DNA of 27,478 nucleotides from a virus, in IMG/VR virus record IMGVR_UViG_3300014838_000067, positions 1 through 27,478 of that record; one strand, 5' to 3'. Position 1 is the first letter of the stretch, and every line of letters begins with the position of its first letter. Positions 3,354-18,079 of the stretch are shown piece after piece. The notes under the pieces are model-generated. The model made no database searches, had not been told where the DNA came from, and worked only from the letters and a program-made list of their open reading frames with translations. The position numbers and the translations under genes were made by a program.

Positions 3354-3905
3354 ATGAATAAAGTTACTGTTACAGAATTTGCCTCTATGTGCGGAGTTAG
3401 TACGGTTGCGATAAGAAAATTGATTACTTATTTAAGCCCAAAAACAGGGCAAAATGAGCCAAAATTAAATGCAATTAAAGACGAAAACGGCAATTATATT
3501 TTAAGTTTAGATGATGAAAAAAATAAAAGTTACCTAGCTAACAAAAAGCATGTTTCGATACAAAATAATCAGGCTTTGGAACAGGTTATAGGTTATGAAA
3601 ACCATAATATCGAAAATTGTCCAAAACCAACTAATGACGTTATGATAACCTTAATTACTGAGCTAAAAAATCTTAGTTTTGAAGCTGGTAAAGCAAAGCA
3701 GTTAGAAAATAATCTAATCGAGAAAAAAGATGATATAAAATATTGGCAAGAAAAGTATTTTGAGTTACAAAACCAAAATAACTTGTTGCATAACCAAGTT
3801 ACTAGCCTTGAAAATAGAAATCGGGAACTTCAAATGCAGCTTGAAAAGAAAGCTGGATTTTTGGGATTATTTAAGAAACAAAGCTATTCAAGTTTTATTT
3901 TTTAA
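3354..3905 (+). CDS. HTH plus coiled-coil protein resembling plasmid replication-associated (DUF536-type) proteins
   Basis: A 183-residue protein. The N-terminus has an excisionase/MerR-like helix-turn-helix (VTEFASMCGVSTVAIRKLI, residues 5-23). The middle is variable and the C-terminal third (about 110-170) is a long coiled coil rich in Glu, Asn and Gln, ending in a short basic-aromatic tail KKAGFLGLFKK. This order is typical of small plasmid proteins found beside rep genes in low-GC bacteria. It diverges from replication-type gene A around an inverted repeat, and the AGTTAT element overlaps its start. Its 3' end overlaps the convergent channel gene by 11 bp. Role in copy control or partition is inferred; a phage regulator is the alternative. 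Confidence 0.55.
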   Translation: MNKVTVTEFASMCGVSTVAIRKLITYLSPKTGQNEPKLNAIKDENGNYILSLDDEKNKSYLANKKHVSIQNNQALEQVIGYENHNIENCPKPTNDVMITLITELKNLSFEAGKAKQLENNLIEKKDDIKYWQEKYFELQNQNNLLHNQVTSLENRNRELQMQLEKKAGFLGLFKKQSYSSFIF

Positions 3906-4593
3906 TAAATCCTGAAATTAAAATACTGGCTAATAATCCATGAATTGCTACACCTATAATGGCTGCAAAAGAAGCAATTATTTTGCCTATAGTGCTTTTT
4001 GGAACTACATCACCATATCCGACACTTGTAAATGTGATTATAGTCCACCACATTGATTTTGGGATGCTTGAAAAGCCATTTTGTAAATGACCCTCGGCAA
4101 AATACATTATTGATGAAATAACTATTAATGCTATTGCAAAAAAGATTCCCCAAATTATTAATTCGTCTTTTTTGTATTTAATTGCATTAATTATATTATT
4201 CAAGGCTTGATTATATCTTGCCAGTTTAAATATCCTTAAAACTCTTGAAAGTCTAAAAATTCTTAAACTAAATAAATTGGAATTTAAAAATGTAAAATAA
4301 AAAGGTAAAATTACAATTAAATCTAATAATAACAAGGATGTGTATAAATCTTTGAATTTTTTTAAAGTTATTACTCTTAAAACGTATTCAATTGAAAATA
4401 AAATCATAAAAAAATTATCAGCAAATTTAAAAAAATTATTAAATTGTGTGTCTATGCTTTTTACTGACTGGGTTATAAAAAGCGTTATGCTGGTAATAAT
4501 TGCTATAACCATAATAATATCAATGGCTTTTGATTCAAGAATAGCGGAAAGTTTATCTTTGAAATTTAGAGTGTTTTCTAATTGAATTTGCAT
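3895..4593 (-). CDS. Six-transmembrane voltage-gated potassium channel
   Basis: A 232-residue inner-membrane protein with the complete Kv layout. S1 is about 22-41, S2 58-76 with E69, and S3 84-103 with D91. S4 is about 106-126 with basic residues every third position (R111, R114, R117, R120, K123, R126). S5 is about 145-165, the pore helix and K+ selectivity filter TSVGYGD lie at 189-195, and S6 spans 202-228 with G214 as possible hinge. The chain stops just after S6 with no RCK or other cytoplasmic domain. It starts 6 bp after the XRE gene stop, so the two form an operon. Such a channel is not a known structural or lysis phage part; a lysogen-expressed accessory gene is the likely explanation. 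Confidence 0.93.
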   Translation of the reverse strand: MQIQLENTLNFKDKLSAILESKAIDIIMVIAIITSITLFITQSVKSIDTQFNNFFKFADNFFMILFSIEYVLRVITLKKFKDLYTSLLLLDLIVILPFYFTFLNSNLFSLRIFRLSRVLRIFKLARYNQALNNIINAIKYKKDELIIWGIFFAIALIVISSIMYFAEGHLQNGFSSIPKSMWWTIITFTSVGYGDVVPKSTIGKIIASFAAIIGVAIHGLLASILISGFIKK

Positions 4594-4599
4594 TTTATT

Positions 4600-4812
4600 T
4601 TATAGCCTTTTAAGTAACACTTCTAATTTTACATTTAAAGCTAACGAAATTCTATAAGCAGTTTCAACAGTGGGGTTTGTTTCACCTCGCTCAAGTACAC
4701 CTATAAAGGTTCTATGCATATCTGCTAGTTCTGCCAATTTTTCCTGGCTTATACCTTGCTGCTTTAGTTCTTTTGCTATTCTTCTTCCAATTAATTTTTT
4801 AATATTTCTCAA
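4600..4812 (-). CDS. XRE-family regulator resembling restriction-modification controller proteins
   Basis: A 70-residue HTH protein from a TTG at 4812; a GTG at 4866 would add 18 residues but lies at the predicted transcription start. The core (GRRIAKELKQQGISQEKLAE, then LADMHRTFIGVLERGETNPT) closely follows the pattern of C proteins that control restriction-modification operons and of related XRE regulators. No methyltransferase or nuclease of such a system is near. It is the first gene of an operon with the K+ channel. C-box-like sequences upstream suggest autoregulation. The TTG has AGAGGGG nine bases upstream, inside a hairpin. HTH identity is sure; start and C-protein analogy are moderately supported. 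Confidence 0.8.
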   Translation of the reverse strand: MRNIKKLIGRRIAKELKQQGISQEKLAELADMHRTFIGVLERGETNPTVETAYRISLALNVKLEVLLKRL

Positions 4813-4847
4813 ATCGATAAGCCCCTCTAATGCTAATAATAGAGGGG
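4813..4847 (-). promoter_or_regulatory. Leader hairpin that sequesters the Shine-Dalgarno of the XRE-channel operon
   Basis: In the minus-strand transcript CCCCTCT (4847-4841) pairs perfectly with AGAGGGG (4828-4822) across a 12-nt loop. The 3' arm is the ribosome-binding site for the TTG at 4812. The GC-rich stem stands out in AT-rich surroundings. No T tract follows, so it is not a terminator. Confidence 0.55.
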
Positions 4848-4863
4848 TAGGACAAACATTCAA

Positions 4864-4917
4864 CACTATACTTATAGCGCAAATGTAGCTAAAAGTTAAT
4901 AATTAAGACTATAAGTA
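4864..4917 (-). promoter_or_regulatory. Promoter and C-box-like operators of the XRE-channel operon
   Basis: On the minus strand TTAACT (4899-4894) and TATAAG (4876-4871) are 17 bp apart. GACTATAAGTA at 4907-4917 matches ten of eleven bases of the C-protein box GACTATAAGTC (reverse of GACTTATAGTC) and lies just upstream of the -35. A related palindrome, CTATACTTATAG (4866-4877), covers the -10. This arrangement fits activation or repression by the encoded XRE protein. Confidence 0.5.
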
Positions 4918-5002: not shown

Positions 5003-5038
5003 TTAAAAAAGATAAGGCACATCGAATACCTTATCTTT
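5003..5038 (-). terminator. Leftward intrinsic terminator downstream of the repressor
   Basis: AAAGATAAGG (5008-5017) and CCTTATCTTT (5029-5038) form a perfect 10-bp stem with an 11-nt loop. On the minus strand it runs into a T-rich tract. It separates repressor transcripts from the XRE-channel operon, so the latter needs its own promoter. About 200 bp of apparently gene-free leftward 3' UTR lies between it and the repressor stop. Confidence 0.75.
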
Positions 5039-5158
5039 CAAATATTTTAAAGCTAGATCGCTTAAAAATATTTTCCAAATTTGATTTTAAATTAAACTTA
5101 ATTTTTTTGCAAGTATCCAGATGAAATGTTGTGTAAATATTTATTTAGGGGTGGTTTT

Positions 5159-5257
5159 GTGCAAAATTTAAAAGAAAAAAAGATAGAAACTAAAATTGGA
5201 ACTAAAAAAGAAATTTTATATATTTGGAATATTTATTTTAAAGAATTTAATCATTAA
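5159..5257 (+). CDS. Possible very small basic protein (uncertain)
   Basis: A 32-residue frame from GTG at 5159, preceded by AGGGGTGG at about 6 bp. It is rich in Lys and Ile and overlaps the convergent repressor end by 11 bp. No motif is recognisable. In AT-rich DNA this could be chance. The rest of the 4918-5158 stretch shows only the terminator stem and no gene. Confidence 0.25.
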   Translation: MQNLKEKKIETKIGTKKEILYIWNIYFKEFNH

Positions 5258-5678
5258 GTCTTGATTTTATAAGTTTAATCATACCTTCAAGCTCGAAAAG
5301 AGCCTCTTTATCTCCTTTTTCTGCCTTAAATAAAGTTTCAAGCATTCCTGTGCCTTTAAATTTAATTGCATATTTCAATAGTTCGTCAGCTTCTTCCTCG
5401 GATACGCCCCATTTTTCTGCGGCAATTCGTCTTTTTTCTAAAAGTTCTTCTTCGGTTGGCGGATTATAAAGAGACATTTCTCCATCGCCAGACAAAATCC
5501 AATTAATATTAATATCAAGTTTTTCTTGCAATAAGGTTAAAAAATCACTACTAGGTTTTACATTACCTTTTAAGATTGAAGCAATATTTCCTTGTGATTT
5601 TTTAAGTATATGAGCTAAATCGGCAGGCCTTAAGTTTTTTTCTATTAATACGAGTTTTAGTCTTTCAAATATTTCCAT
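5247..5678 (-). CDS. CI-like phage repressor (short, no protease domain)
   Basis: A 143-residue protein. Residues 1-60 form an XRE helix-turn-helix (ADLAHILKKSQGNIASILKG) followed by NINWILSGDGEM, the element typical of phage CI-type repressors. The C-terminal part is an acidic helical region and lacks the S24 LexA-like autocleavage domain, so induction must work in another way; the ANT protein at 9067 is a candidate antirepressor. It is transcribed leftward and faces the Cro-like gene, with twin operators in between. The role in keeping lysogeny is inferred from this classic arrangement. Confidence 0.85.
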   Translation of the reverse strand: MEIFERLKLVLIEKNLRPADLAHILKKSQGNIASILKGNVKPSSDFLTLLQEKLDININWILSGDGEMSLYNPPTEEELLEKRRIAAEKWGVSEEEADELLKYAIKFKGTGMLETLFKAEKGDKEALFELEGMIKLIKSRLND

Positions 5679-5708: not shown

Positions 5709-5761
5709 CTACTAATTTTAGTATTGACCGCTACTAAAATTAGTAGTAAGATTTACTAAAT
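5709..5761. promoter_or_regulatory. Repressor/Cro operators at 22-bp spacing
   Basis: O1 (5709-5724) and O2 (5731-5746) share CTACTAA arms with TTAGTAG around a 2-bp centre; O2 has both arms perfect, O1 misses one base. A half-site TTACTAA (5753-5759) falls exactly one further 22-bp step away. The sites flank and cover the rightward promoter. Confidence 0.85.
5724..5752 (+). promoter_or_regulatory. Rightward early promoter (PR-like)
   Basis: TTGACC (5724-5729) and TAAGAT (5747-5752) are 17 bp apart. O2 fills the spacer, so bound repressor would block polymerase. A leftward partner is weaker: TATAAA (minus strand, 5708-5703) without a good -35, as expected for a repressor promoter that needs activation. 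Confidence 0.65.
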
Positions 5762-5834: not shown

Positions 5835-6047
5835 ATGTTTTACAGAGAAGAGTTTGAAATAGCTTTAATAAAAAATAAAACTAATCAACAAAAGCTTGCA
5901 AAAGAATACGGTTGTTCAAGTAAATTCTTCAATCTTTTTATTAATGGTAAGAAAAAAAGTAAACCGCTTGAAAAATTTATCAGCGAGAAATTAAATATTT
6001 TACCGATGCAGGATGATAAAAACAATTCATCCAGAGAAATTGCCTAA
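5835..6047 (+). CDS. Cro-like HTH regulator
   Basis: A 70-residue basic protein, first gene of the rightward early operon. An HTH pattern (NQQKLAKEYGCSSKFFNLFI, about residues 17-36) is followed by a Lys-rich turn and a short polar tail. Size and position opposite the CI-like repressor across shared operators are what a Cro protein shows. It would repress both promoters after induction. GGAAAGAAT precedes the ATG. Some plasmid copy regulators look alike, but the context favours Cro. Confidence 0.7.
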   Translation: MFYREEFEIALIKNKTNQQKLAKEYGCSSKFFNLFINGKKKSKPLEKFISEKLNILPMQDDKNNSSREIA

Positions 6048-10129: not shown

Positions 10130-10510
10130 ATGACAGAAAAACAAATAGAAAAACAAAAAATAGAAAAAAAAGTAAGAAGTCGGATAAAGACAAAGATTAA
10201 AGATCTGCTTTCATTTTATAAAGATGCGCCATTAGATCGTGTAGATACTTATCGATCAGCTATTGTAACTTTAGCTAATATTAATATACATATTCAGGAT
10301 TGCGAAGAGGCTATTTTAATTAATGGGCGAAGAATACGATATCAAAATGGTAAAAGCCAATGGGGATATAAAAGAAATGATGATATAGACACTCTTAAAG
10401 AGTTGACCCTATTGAAAATTAAGCTTGAAAACCATTTACAGCTAGTATTATATGGCGAAAATGATAAAGGGTTAGAGGATGACGGTTTTGATGAGCTTAG
10501 CAACCGTTGA
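10130..10510 (+). CDS. Terminase small subunit (probable)
   Basis: A 126-residue protein with a very basic, helical N-terminus (EKQIEKQKIEKKVRSRIKTK), a helical middle and an acidic tail. It lies between the HNH gene and TerL, and its end overlaps TerL by 32 bp. Small subunits bind the packaging site and load TerL. The sequence is divergent and I cannot see a clear HTH, so the call rests mainly on position and size. TAGGTAAAAA precedes ATG. Confidence 0.6.
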   Translation: MTEKQIEKQKIEKKVRSRIKTKIKDLLSFYKDAPLDRVDTYRSAIVTLANINIHIQDCEEAILINGRRIRYQNGKSQWGYKRNDDIDTLKELTLLKIKLENHLQLVLYGENDKGLEDDGFDELSNR

Positions 10511-12176
10511 ATATTATGATAATCCGATATTTAAATACAATGAAAAAATTCAATCTGGTGAAATTGCTGCATGTGAAAAGCTTAAGAAAATATATAAATA
10601 TGTAGTTGATAGTCTTTCAAATCCTGAATGTGAGTTTGAATATTCGCATATTAAGGCAAATAAGGCTATAGGATTTGTAGAGAGGTTTTGTAAGCACTCA
10701 AAAGGCAAGTGGGGCGGTAAACCTTTAACATTAGAGTTATGGCAAAAAGCTTTAATTGCTTGCATGTTCGGCCTTATAAATAAAAAAACTGGTTTAAGGC
10801 AAATTAAAGAAACATTTCTGCTTGTTGCTAGAAAAAATGGAAAGTCTCTTTTGGCGTCAGCTATTGCATTGTATTGTCTGATGTTGGATGGAGAGGCAGG
10901 CGCTGAAGTTTACTCGATTGCAACAAAAAGAGAACAGGCCAAAATAGTTTGGGATGAATCAGTAAAAATGATTAAAAAATCTCCTGCTTTAAATAAACGT
11001 ACAAAATGTTTAGTCTCTGAAATTAAATTTAAAGACTCTGTTTTTAAACCATTATCCAGTGAATCAAAAAGTTTAGACGGTTTAAACGTATCAACTGCAA
11101 TTATAGATGAATTACACGAGATGAGAGATAAAAATCTATATGATGTTATTGTTGACAGTTGTGCGTCTAGGACACAGCCTGTAATTTTTGATATTTCGAC
11201 TGCCGGAACTCATAGGGAGGGAATATTTGATATTAAGTATAGGGAAGCAGAAAACTTAATAAAAAAAATTGATGAAAAGAAAAAATTTAATTTAAGATTT
11301 CTTCCGATTTTTTATGAATTGGATTTTGAGAAAGAATATTTAAATGAAGAATGCTGGATTAAAGCTAACCCTAATTTAAATATATCAAAAGATAAAAGTG
11401 TTCTTAATGATGAGATAGAAAAGGTAAAAGATCAGGAAGAATTAAAAACTAATTTACTCTGTAAACACTTTAATCTTAGACAAAACAGCGCATCAAAATG
11501 GTTAACCTGGGAACAAAAGGAAAACAAGGCAACATTTGATATTGAAATGTTTAGAGATTTTTATGCGGGTGGTGGCGTTGATATATCAAGTACAACTGAT
11601 TTAACAGCTGCTTGTTTGCTCTTAAAGAAACCTTTTGAAGATACTTTATATTTTATGCATATGTACTGGCTGCCAGTTGAAAATATAGATCAGCGTGAAA
11701 AGGAAGATAAAGTACCTTATTCGTTATGGGTTAAGCAAGGTTATTTGCGCTTATGTGAAGGAAATAAAGTTAATCCTAGTGATATTACTATCTGGTTTAA
11801 AGAAATTCAGGAAAAATATGGAATTTATTTGTATCGCTGCGGTTTTGATTCCTGGGGATCTCAAATGTGGGTCAAAGAGATGCAGGATGCTTTCACAAAG
11901 GATGTACCAGAACAAGTAATACAGGGTGCTAAGACTTTAAGTAACCCTATGAAGCAATTAGGGGCTGATTTAAAGAGTAAATTAATTAATTATGGTAATA
12001 ATCCTATTACTTTTTGGAATCTAACCAATGTAAGTGTAGTTGTTGATAGAAATAATAATATAGTCCCCTGCAAGAGTAATCAAAAGCAACGTATAGATGG
12101 TGTAGCAGCTATGCTAGATGCTTATGTTGTCTATAAAAATAACAGTCAGGATTTTGACAGTATGAATAATAGGTAA
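10479..12176 (+). CDS. terL: Terminase large subunit
   Basis: A 565-residue packaging motor of the HK97/Terminase_1 type. It has the ATPase domain with Walker A VARKNGKS (116-123), Walker B TAIIDELHEM (D210, E211), a coupling motif STAGT (240-244), and a C-terminal RNase H-like nuclease with GGGVDISSTTDLTA and GFDSWGSQMWVKEM. It drives DNA into the prohead and cuts it. The start at 10479 has GGG 7 bp upstream; the ATG at 10491 is an alternative. Full family length and all key motifs are present. Confidence 0.95.
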   Translation: MTVLMSLATVEYYDNPIFKYNEKIQSGEIAACEKLKKIYKYVVDSLSNPECEFEYSHIKANKAIGFVERFCKHSKGKWGGKPLTLELWQKALIACMFGLINKKTGLRQIKETFLLVARKNGKSLLASAIALYCLMLDGEAGAEVYSIATKREQAKIVWDESVKMIKKSPALNKRTKCLVSEIKFKDSVFKPLSSESKSLDGLNVSTAIIDELHEMRDKNLYDVIVDSCASRTQPVIFDISTAGTHREGIFDIKYREAENLIKKIDEKKKFNLRFLPIFYELDFEKEYLNEECWIKANPNLNISKDKSVLNDEIEKVKDQEELKTNLLCKHFNLRQNSASKWLTWEQKENKATFDIEMFRDFYAGGGVDISSTTDLTAACLLLKKPFEDTLYFMHMYWLPVENIDQREKEDKVPYSLWVKQGYLRLCEGNKVNPSDITIWFKEIQEKYGIYLYRCGFDSWGSQMWVKEMQDAFTKDVPEQVIQGAKTLSNPMKQLGADLKSKLINYGNNPITFWNLTNVSVVVDRNNNIVPCKSNQKQRIDGVAAMLDAYVVYKNNSQDFDSMNNR

Positions 12177-17011: not shown

Positions 17012-18079
17012 ATGAGTAGTGGACTTTCTTTAAGTCAAATTATGCCACCAATAGAGGTAATTTTTGAGCAATTGGCTGCAAATTTAATTGCGACTGGGTT
17101 AAAGGGTGTTGTCCTGTATGCGACTAAAAATACTGCACAAAGCAATTTGGTTGAACTTTTTAGTTTTACAGATGCAAATAATATTACCGGTTTAACTTCT
17201 GTTGATGCAGCACAAGTTAAAAATATTTTTCTTGGCAATGTTAAACAGGTTATTGTAATTACTTACAGTACTCAATTTTCTGATTGTGCTAATTTAATTG
17301 GTGCTCAAAATTTTGACTGGTTAGTTTGTGATGATGCTAATGAACAAACAAATGTGGCTTTATATGGCAAAGAAAACGCAGTTAAGACTGTTGTTTTTAA
17401 TTATGCTGCTGATGATATGCACGTTGTTAATTTTACTAATCCTTCAGTTTTATTGGATGATGGTGTAACGATTCAAACAGGGCTTGAATATCTGCCTCGT
17501 GTTGCCGGTGCTTTGGCTGGTTTGCCATACACAGAGGATGCTTGTGCCCTTACTTTTACTGATTTAGCAAGTGTTACTATGCCAGCTAATATGGAATTAG
17601 GGCAATTTATTCTATATAATGATCCTTCGGGAGTTAAGGTTGCTAATCCTGTTAACAGTTTGCTTACACTAACAACTAATATTACCGCTGATATGCAATC
17701 TATTTGCATTGTTGAGGGTATGGACAGAATGACCGCCGATATTAAGGCTGCTTTTGCTCAGTCTTACAAAGGCAAATATAAAAATATGTATAATTATCAG
17801 TGTTTGCTTATAGCAGCTGTTAATTATTATTTTACAGTTTTGGGAAATATGGAGATATTGGATCCTAATTATAACAATGTTTGTAGTGTTGATACTGTAA
17901 CTCAACAAGCGCTTTGGATAGCTGACGGCTATAATGGAACTAATGGAAATGAGGATGCTTCTACGTGGACTGATATTCAGATTAAGAATAATGCATATAA
18001 AAAGCAGGTTTTACTCCTGAATAATGTAAAATTCTTAGATGGTATGGATTCTTTGCAGTTTACAGTTCAGATGATGTAG
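17012..18079 (+). CDS. Contractile tail sheath protein (XkdK-like)
   Basis: A 355-residue protein. It opens with SSGLSLSQIMPPIEVIFEQL and GLKGVVLYATKN, has the NFDWLVCDDANEQTNVALYG region typical of sheaths, a beta-rich middle, and a C-terminal WTDIQIKNNAYKKQVLLLNN that would form the handshake with neighbouring subunits. AGGAGAATAATT is a strong ribosome site. Presence of a sheath shows that the phage is a myovirus. It is at the short end for sheaths, like XkdK-type proteins. Confidence 0.9.
   Translation: MSSGLSLSQIMPPIEVIFEQLAANLIATGLKGVVLYATKNTAQSNLVELFSFTDANNITGLTSVDAAQVKNIFLGNVKQVIVITYSTQFSDCANLIGAQNFDWLVCDDANEQTNVALYGKENAVKTVVFNYAADDMHVVNFTNPSVLLDDGVTIQTGLEYLPRVAGALAGLPYTEDACALTFTDLASVTMPANMELGQFILYNDPSGVKVANPVNSLLTLTTNITADMQSICIVEGMDRMTADIKAAFAQSYKGKYKNMYNYQCLLIAAVNYYFTVLGNMEILDPNYNNVCSVDTVTQQALWIADGYNGTNGNEDASTWTDIQIKNNAYKKQVLLLNNVKFLDGMDSLQFTVQMM

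Follow-up and report, generated by a model that had tools for sequence, protein, structure and literature searches.

A complete voltage-gated potassium channel gene beside the lysogenic switch of a contractile-tailed phage, and the repeated placement of its relatives behind phage repressors

What might a complete voltage-gated potassium channel do in the lysogenic region of a phage genome? The question is raised by a gene in a 27,478-base IMG/VR virus record, the whole of which was analysed here and is referred to as the window. What voltage-gated K+ channels naturally do in bacteria and archaea is, to our knowledge, still largely unsettled, and channels that stand repeatedly right behind phage repressors, including those of phages of culturable lactobacilli, offer a concrete place where such a role can be tested.

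The channel gene and its protein

The original prediction, made from the letters of the window, had placed a six-helix voltage-gated channel at 3895-4593 and stated no strand. The open reading frame is real and lies on the minus strand, where it starts with ATG and encodes 232 aa; the plus strand of this interval is full of stops. The G+C content of the gene is 25%, against 31.8% for the window. The protein matched two Pfam families, Ion_trans at an E of 4.8e-26 and Ion_trans_2 at 4.4e-14, each scoring better than its gathering threshold, and a PDB sequence search returned solved Kv channels at up to 5e-28 (Kv2.1), together with many other Kv. The monomer was modelled by AlphaFold2 with an alignment of 82 channel sequences, giving a pLDDT of 91.3 and a pTM of 0.71. 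The model contains S1 (22-42), S2 (52-75), S3 (86-101), S4 (107-127), S5 (142-167), a pore helix (177-188) and S6 (201-231 of 232 residues) in the correct order. The best Foldseek matches in the PDB were Kv1.3, Kv4.2 and Kv1.2 (7.6e-11 and up), and VIA-align superposed the model on the best fold match, human Kv4.2, with a Z of 19.6 and an rmsd of 2.2 over 226 residues. A search of the BFVD fold library gave weak pore-only matches and nothing useful.

The S4 segment reads LRIFRLSRVLRIFKLARY, and its gating charges R111, R114, R117, R120, K123 and R126 (4216-4263, minus strand) are spaced exactly every third position. Conservation was counted in the alignment of 82 channel sequences, where R111 is kept in 81, R114 in 79, R117 in 77 and R120 in 78; of the remaining charges, K123 is found in 72 (R in 5) and R126 in 62. 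The gating-charge transfer centre comprises the hydrophobic cap and acidic residue of S2, F66-E69 (4387-4398, minus strand), which align with the FxxE of Kv2.1, and the S3 aspartate D91 (4321-4323, minus strand). Here F66 is kept in 81/82 sequences, while E/D69 and D91 are each kept in 82/82. In the selectivity filter TSVGYGD (residues 189-195; 4009-4029, minus strand), T189 and G192-D195 are invariant, GYGD being present in all 82. The results bore out the features that had been read from the letters alone, namely six complete helices, six regularly spaced S4 charges, the filter and an end right after S6.

By its sequence the channel is of the working type, with voltage sensor, pore and filter all intact. 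On every testable feature of sequence and modelled fold it belongs to the Kv family, and it would be expected to form a tetramer with a voltage-dependent K+ current. Its fold, S4 charges, charge-transfer centre and filter are common to Kv1/Kv2/Kv4 and to prokaryotic KvAP-type channels. Unlike the eukaryotic Kv1-4, it has about 20 residues before S1 in place of a T1 domain and ends at S6; moreover, its S6 carries HGL (IHGLLASIL) where Kv channels have the ALP/PVP proline, which sets it outside the Kv1-4 subfamilies. Position 221 has no proline, which is present in 76/82 relatives, and the usual ALP region is replaced at H218 (3940-3942, minus strand), a histidine invariant in the channel subgroup of the host order described below. 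The complete voltage sensor rules out a minimal viral K+ channel: chlorovirus Kcv also has a virus-coded K+ filter, but it is pore-only. The sequence does not reveal the direction of gating, and methanogen channels with a similar S4 open on hyperpolarisation. Model NF040645 (hyperpolarization-activated K+ channel, methanogen type) gave 39.3 bits with the window channel, below its equivalog cut-off of 300 bits. The PHROG 7872 profile, which carries no function annotation, matched residues 18-232 at 1.8e-40; it also matched all 82 aligned relatives, cellular ones included, and is thus not phage-specific.

The lysogenic switch region

The rightward genes of the window encode terminase, portal, prohead protease, tail sheath, tape measure and baseplate proteins. 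The large terminase subunit lies at 10479-12176 (plus strand; TerL_ATPase, 5.9e-35) and the tail sheath at 17012-18079 (plus strand; phrog_1480, 6e-65), and the sheath gene marks the phage as contractile-tailed. Both the myovirus assignment of the original prediction and its placement of the channel in the lysogenic-control part are supported. The channel is on the leftward, lysogenic side of a divergent gene pair, formed by a CI-like repressor of 143 aa (5247-5678, minus strand; phrog_4 transcriptional repressor, 3.2e-11; HTH_19, 8.7e-7) and a small Cro-like ORF (5835-6047, plus strand). The latter resemblance is weak: the ORF matched the divergent HTH ORFs in L007, L086 and L087 at 34% across 50 aa, and Pfam returned no match. 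Two operator-like palindromes, TACTAAAATTAGTA, occupy the intergenic region at 5710-5723 and 5732-5745, and no further exact copy of this 14-mer occurs anywhere in the window.

Between the repressor and the channel, an intrinsic terminator with a 14-pair stem and a T tail (5007-5039, minus strand; z -5.27) closes the repressor transcript in the direction 5039-5007, so that a small HTH regulator gene (4600-4866, minus strand; HTH_3, 6.7e-15) and the channel, which follows it at 6 nt, look like a separate unit. This reading also draws on the operators, which stand only at the repressor, and on the ribosome site of the channel (AAAGG), which sits within the last codons of the HTH gene. The true start of the HTH gene is probably TTG at 4812 (70 aa), behind GAGGGG. 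A 9-nt perfect inverted repeat, TACTTATAG/CTATAAGTA (4869-4877 and 4909-4917), may serve as the operator of the unit; the 9-mer has 3 copies in the window versus 0.46 expected. A hairpin, CCCCTCTA/TAGAGGGG (4822-4847), stands directly before the probable TTG start and covers the ribosome site; translational control of the HTH gene by this hairpin is possible. The promoter scan of the window gave 24 sites versus 17.4 (sd 4.2) by chance, and the candidate at 4986-4959 scored only 9/12. The unit has no clear terminator of its own. Neither an Rfam search of the window nor a viral scan with the small HTH protein as query gave anything useful.

The coupling of the two genes is what a toxin-antitoxin or addiction unit would show, with the small HTH protein restraining a toxic channel, and the protein does resemble control proteins (PADLOC Control_protein, 1.4e-13), CapH (3.5e-8) and antitoxins of the Y4mF/HigA type. 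However, its NCBIfam matches reflect general XRE-type HTH similarity below the curated cut-offs, and the adjacent HTH protein in other phages is usually the CI repressor itself; we regard an addiction unit as highly improbable.

On the other side of the channel, a convergent gene for a coiled-coil protein (3354-3905, plus strand) overlaps the channel end by 11 nt. Phage genes thus flank the channel on both sides, and relatives occupy the same place in other phages, which removes the objection, raised together with the prediction, that the gene might belong to a chromosomal segment of a chimeric assembly. None of the ORFs in the window was recognised as an integrase or recombinase, the record is linear, and a search for terminal repeats found none; the phage is taken to be temperate on the grounds of its repressor region and its relatives. 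The contig ends (27020-27478 and 1-1003) read like pieces of a single repetitive tail-fibre gene that are out of frame by one base; at about 27.5 kb the genome may be almost closed and integrase-less.

Recurrence and descent of the channels

Related prophages were sought with the large terminase subunit as query. Relatives of 49-54% identity occurred in at least 8 genomes of one bacterial order, which falls in the class of the rumen MAG RUG14326 (L094) and which, from gene content, we take to be the Gastranaerophilales (the host order). One such prophage (L210) has terminase, portal, protease, capsid, sheath and baseplate in common with the window, and in it an S24 repressor is followed first by an HSDR_N protein and then by a Kv channel with 41% identity to that of the window. 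In a viral contig (L250), an S24 repressor is followed by a bPH/SHOCT protein, a small exported Cys-rich protein, a Kv channel and a tyrosine integrase, the last three genes overlapping; its channel is 44% identical to that of the window and 58% to that of L210. As is characteristic of morons, the channel is absent from close relatives, namely from the sampled stretches of L211, L212, L241, L242 and L244. The slot holds a DEDDh-BRCT exonuclease resembling PADLOC PDC-S48, a candidate defence gene, in L242, and small or unknown proteins in L241, L244 and L246; a large protein reading as a serine recombinase follows the cargo in these relatives. This other cargo indicates that the slot is variable and that the channel is one of its accessory genes.

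Two further genes next to such channels were observed. The lone HSDR_N-domain protein between repressor and channel (L210:4701-5813) is possible defence cargo. The small exported Cys-rich protein (..YHxxxC..KxCGG) adjoins the channel in two phages (L210:6681-6896, L250:7789-7998) and two chromosomes (L228:885-1088, L232:1181-1396), and is a possible channel partner.

A channel might also serve the phage's own cycle by tuning the membrane potential at infection or induction, with effects on DNA entry, the choice between lysis and lysogeny, or holin timing. Greiner et al. (PMC6163359) note that DNA injection by T4 and T5 requires an increased K+ conductance. The timing of lysis depends on membrane energisation. 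Yet the window channel is transcribed with the lysogenic side, away from the lysis and structural genes, and its absence from the sampled stretches of the five relatives indicates that the cycle does not need it, so that this role appears improbable.

To what extent the placement recurs was assessed by a profile scan of viral contigs, which found 182 channel relatives, of which 80 were kept; a scan with the channel as a single-protein query gave nothing useful. The closest relatives in annotated phage records include those of Lactobacillus phages PLE2 and JNU_P5, Enterococcus phage Efs 1-1-1, Dulem virus 33 and Halorubrum virus Humcor1. In PLE2, JNU_P5 and the faecal Dulem virus 33, repressor, channel and integrase follow in that order on one strand. 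Clustering at 70% identity left 57 assessable, non-redundant viral channels. A same-strand CI-type HTH gene at most 600 nt upstream was present for 26/57 of them, compared with 36/475 control ORFs of the same loci (Fisher p 2.7e-12) and 0/60 of the closest cellular channels. Repressor-type proteins from four of these phages had served as seeds for the HTH model behind these counts; in an independent Pfam check all 25 upstream ORFs other than that of the window were HTH_3 proteins, 7 of them also S24 peptidases. By the same 600-nt criterion, about half of the viral relatives have no nearby repressor. Among the next large downstream ORFs (n=42), 27 encode tyrosine integrases and another 6 encode serine recombinases, 33 in all. 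Some of the contigs classed as viral appear to be chromosomal. One is L008, which held the nearest relative in the first scan of viral contigs; it has dnaB- and fabI-like neighbours and was left out as phage evidence. A 363-kb viral contig (L002:7590-8615) encodes a glutamate-receptor-like channel, in which the periplasmic binding halves are split by a K+ pore with TTTGYGD.

The original prediction had called a full voltage sensor in a temperate phage unusual, a view that is only partly right. Phage K+ channels, annotated as "ion transporter", had already been reported by Greiner et al. (2018; PMC6163359), including gp27 of Lactobacillus phage PLE2, the PLE channel being predicted there with four helices, and our scan of viral contigs found the 182 relatives given above. 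PLE2 gp27 belongs to the same protein family as the window channel and PHROG 7872, and its gene likewise lies between repressor and integrase. The passages on phage channels in that paper propose no lysogeny role and name no member of the phage group of the window. Among open-licence PMC papers, a literature search turned up no description of Kv-type channels within lysogeny modules or of their repeated placement. What seems to be new, therefore, is the tie between a complete voltage sensor and lysogeny modules, and the repeated placement of channels behind phage repressors, which seems undescribed.

The window channel groups with channels of the host order (support 97/94), with which it has in common the S6 histidine (H218) and HGL/HAL in place of the common ALP. 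It is drawn from a channel lineage of this order; it sits on a long branch and its exact place is unsure. One origin for all lysogeny-placed channels, those of the window and the G235 prophage among them, was rejected (p-AU 8e-54), as was a sister relationship between the window and G235 prophage channels (p 0.0007); for the 14 other lysogeny channels, with L010 and L014 set aside, one origin was not rejected (p 0.31). The rejection of a single origin implies that at least two separate lineages reached the same genomic slot.

These results bear on the view that the channel is neutral cargo, a host gene acquired by chance that has no function in the phage. It would agree with the accessory status of the channel within its own phage group and with its origin from the channel pool of the host order. 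Against it, the frame is intact and all gating and filter residues are kept despite the long branch, separate lineages have the channel in the same place, and dN/dS is low in closely related phage copies, mostly 0.03-0.2 (L065/L083 0.04; L056/L070 0.07), omega of about 0.04-0.07 in several informative pairs indicating purifying selection. We consider neutral cargo very unlikely.

Possible roles of the channel in the lysogen

We tentatively read the channel as an accessory, moron-like cassette acting in the membrane of the lysogen, where it would change K+ flux and membrane potential, most likely in superinfection exclusion or abortive defence, a reading in which belief and doubt are close to balance. 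It builds on the lysogenic side occupied by the gene, the slot that holds candidate defence genes in sister prophages, the comparable slot of ltp and the Shango-linked channels described below. In such a cassette, a control-protein-type HTH gene and, 6 nt on, a full Kv channel would be transcribed in the lysogenic direction beyond the CI-like terminator. We infer that the channel would be made in the lysogen and work in its membrane against incoming phages. Infection would disturb the membrane potential, the voltage sensor would respond in whichever direction it gates, and the resulting flow of K+ would exclude or abort the superinfecting phage. No PADLOC model matches the channel, and lysogeny modules also hold fitness genes without a link to defence.

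The closest precedents are exclusion genes of other prophages. For lambda RexAB, Sbash gp30/31 and CarolAnn gp43/44, a prophage membrane protein has been proposed to act on the potential (PMC6426596, PMC6426606), and the Rex-type membrane gene lies near the repressor in lambda and CarolAnn, as does the window channel. The Rex analogy drawn in the original prediction is thus apt for the position and the class of idea, but not for mechanism or membership. RexB and Sbash gp31 are four-helix proteins that have a RexA-type cytosolic partner and for which no K+ filter is described; the window channel has six helices, its neighbours are HTH proteins and a coiled coil, and neither a Rex-like match nor a RexA-like partner (DUF4747) was found among the window genes, so that membership in the Rex family is rejected. 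As for mechanism, a K+-selective pore drives the potential to the K+ equilibrium and lets K+ out on depolarisation; it is doubtful in principle that such a pore would simply collapse the potential in the way proposed for RexB. A proven exclusion gene in a lysogeny module, ltp of TP-J34, lies behind CI repressor/metalloproteinase genes (PMC3952083) in a slot comparable to that of the window channel, but Ltp, a lipoprotein, acts by blocking the injection of DNA and is not a channel.

Taken further, temperate phages of several lineages might have repeatedly taken up Kv channels behind their repressors as electrical sensor-effectors, which would sense the depolarisation caused by an invader, open a path for K+ and stop the infection. 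This would give prokaryotic Kv channels a natural role; we think it unlikely as a general account. Should the channels exclude phages, phage exclusion would be seen to have a voltage-sensing form, and a function could be assigned to PHROG 7872.

Alternatively, the channel could be a fitness gene of lysogenic conversion that helps the host to hold its K+ balance or its membrane potential when it meets acid, osmotic or uncoupling stress, and so favours the lysogen irrespective of other phages. A channel relative is carried by 24/383 genomes of the host order, and the other copies that could be placed, same-subgroup relatives among them, lie at varied chromosomal positions, which speaks for this reading. 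Strong purifying selection points the same way, and the conserved S6 histidine might allow pH sensing. Repeated placement behind repressors by different lineages, on the other hand, fits a phage-specific benefit, and the slot holds candidate defence genes in related prophages. A general fitness gene is in our estimation doubtful, though a contender to be taken seriously.

Returning to the preferred reading of exclusion or abortive defence, some chromosomal channels of the host order are themselves linked to an anti-phage system. In five genomes (L233, L235, L237, L239 and L240) a Kv channel lies 10 nt behind a three-gene operon, which in L239 matches a complete SngABC of the anti-phage system Shango (PMC10250203). 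It is found at about 7.9-8.7 kb (3.5 kb in L235), and the L240 copy is broken by stops. The channel behind SngABC is possibly a fourth gene of the system. The Shango-linked channels belong to a clade different from that of the window channel and are close to each other, and the linkage may be one single event. Directly beside several chromosomal channels, proteins starting MGFxxRKSxxLxxGxxxNLSKSGIGxSxG were also observed (L008:3825-4820, L221:6711-7760 and L234:1073-1456).
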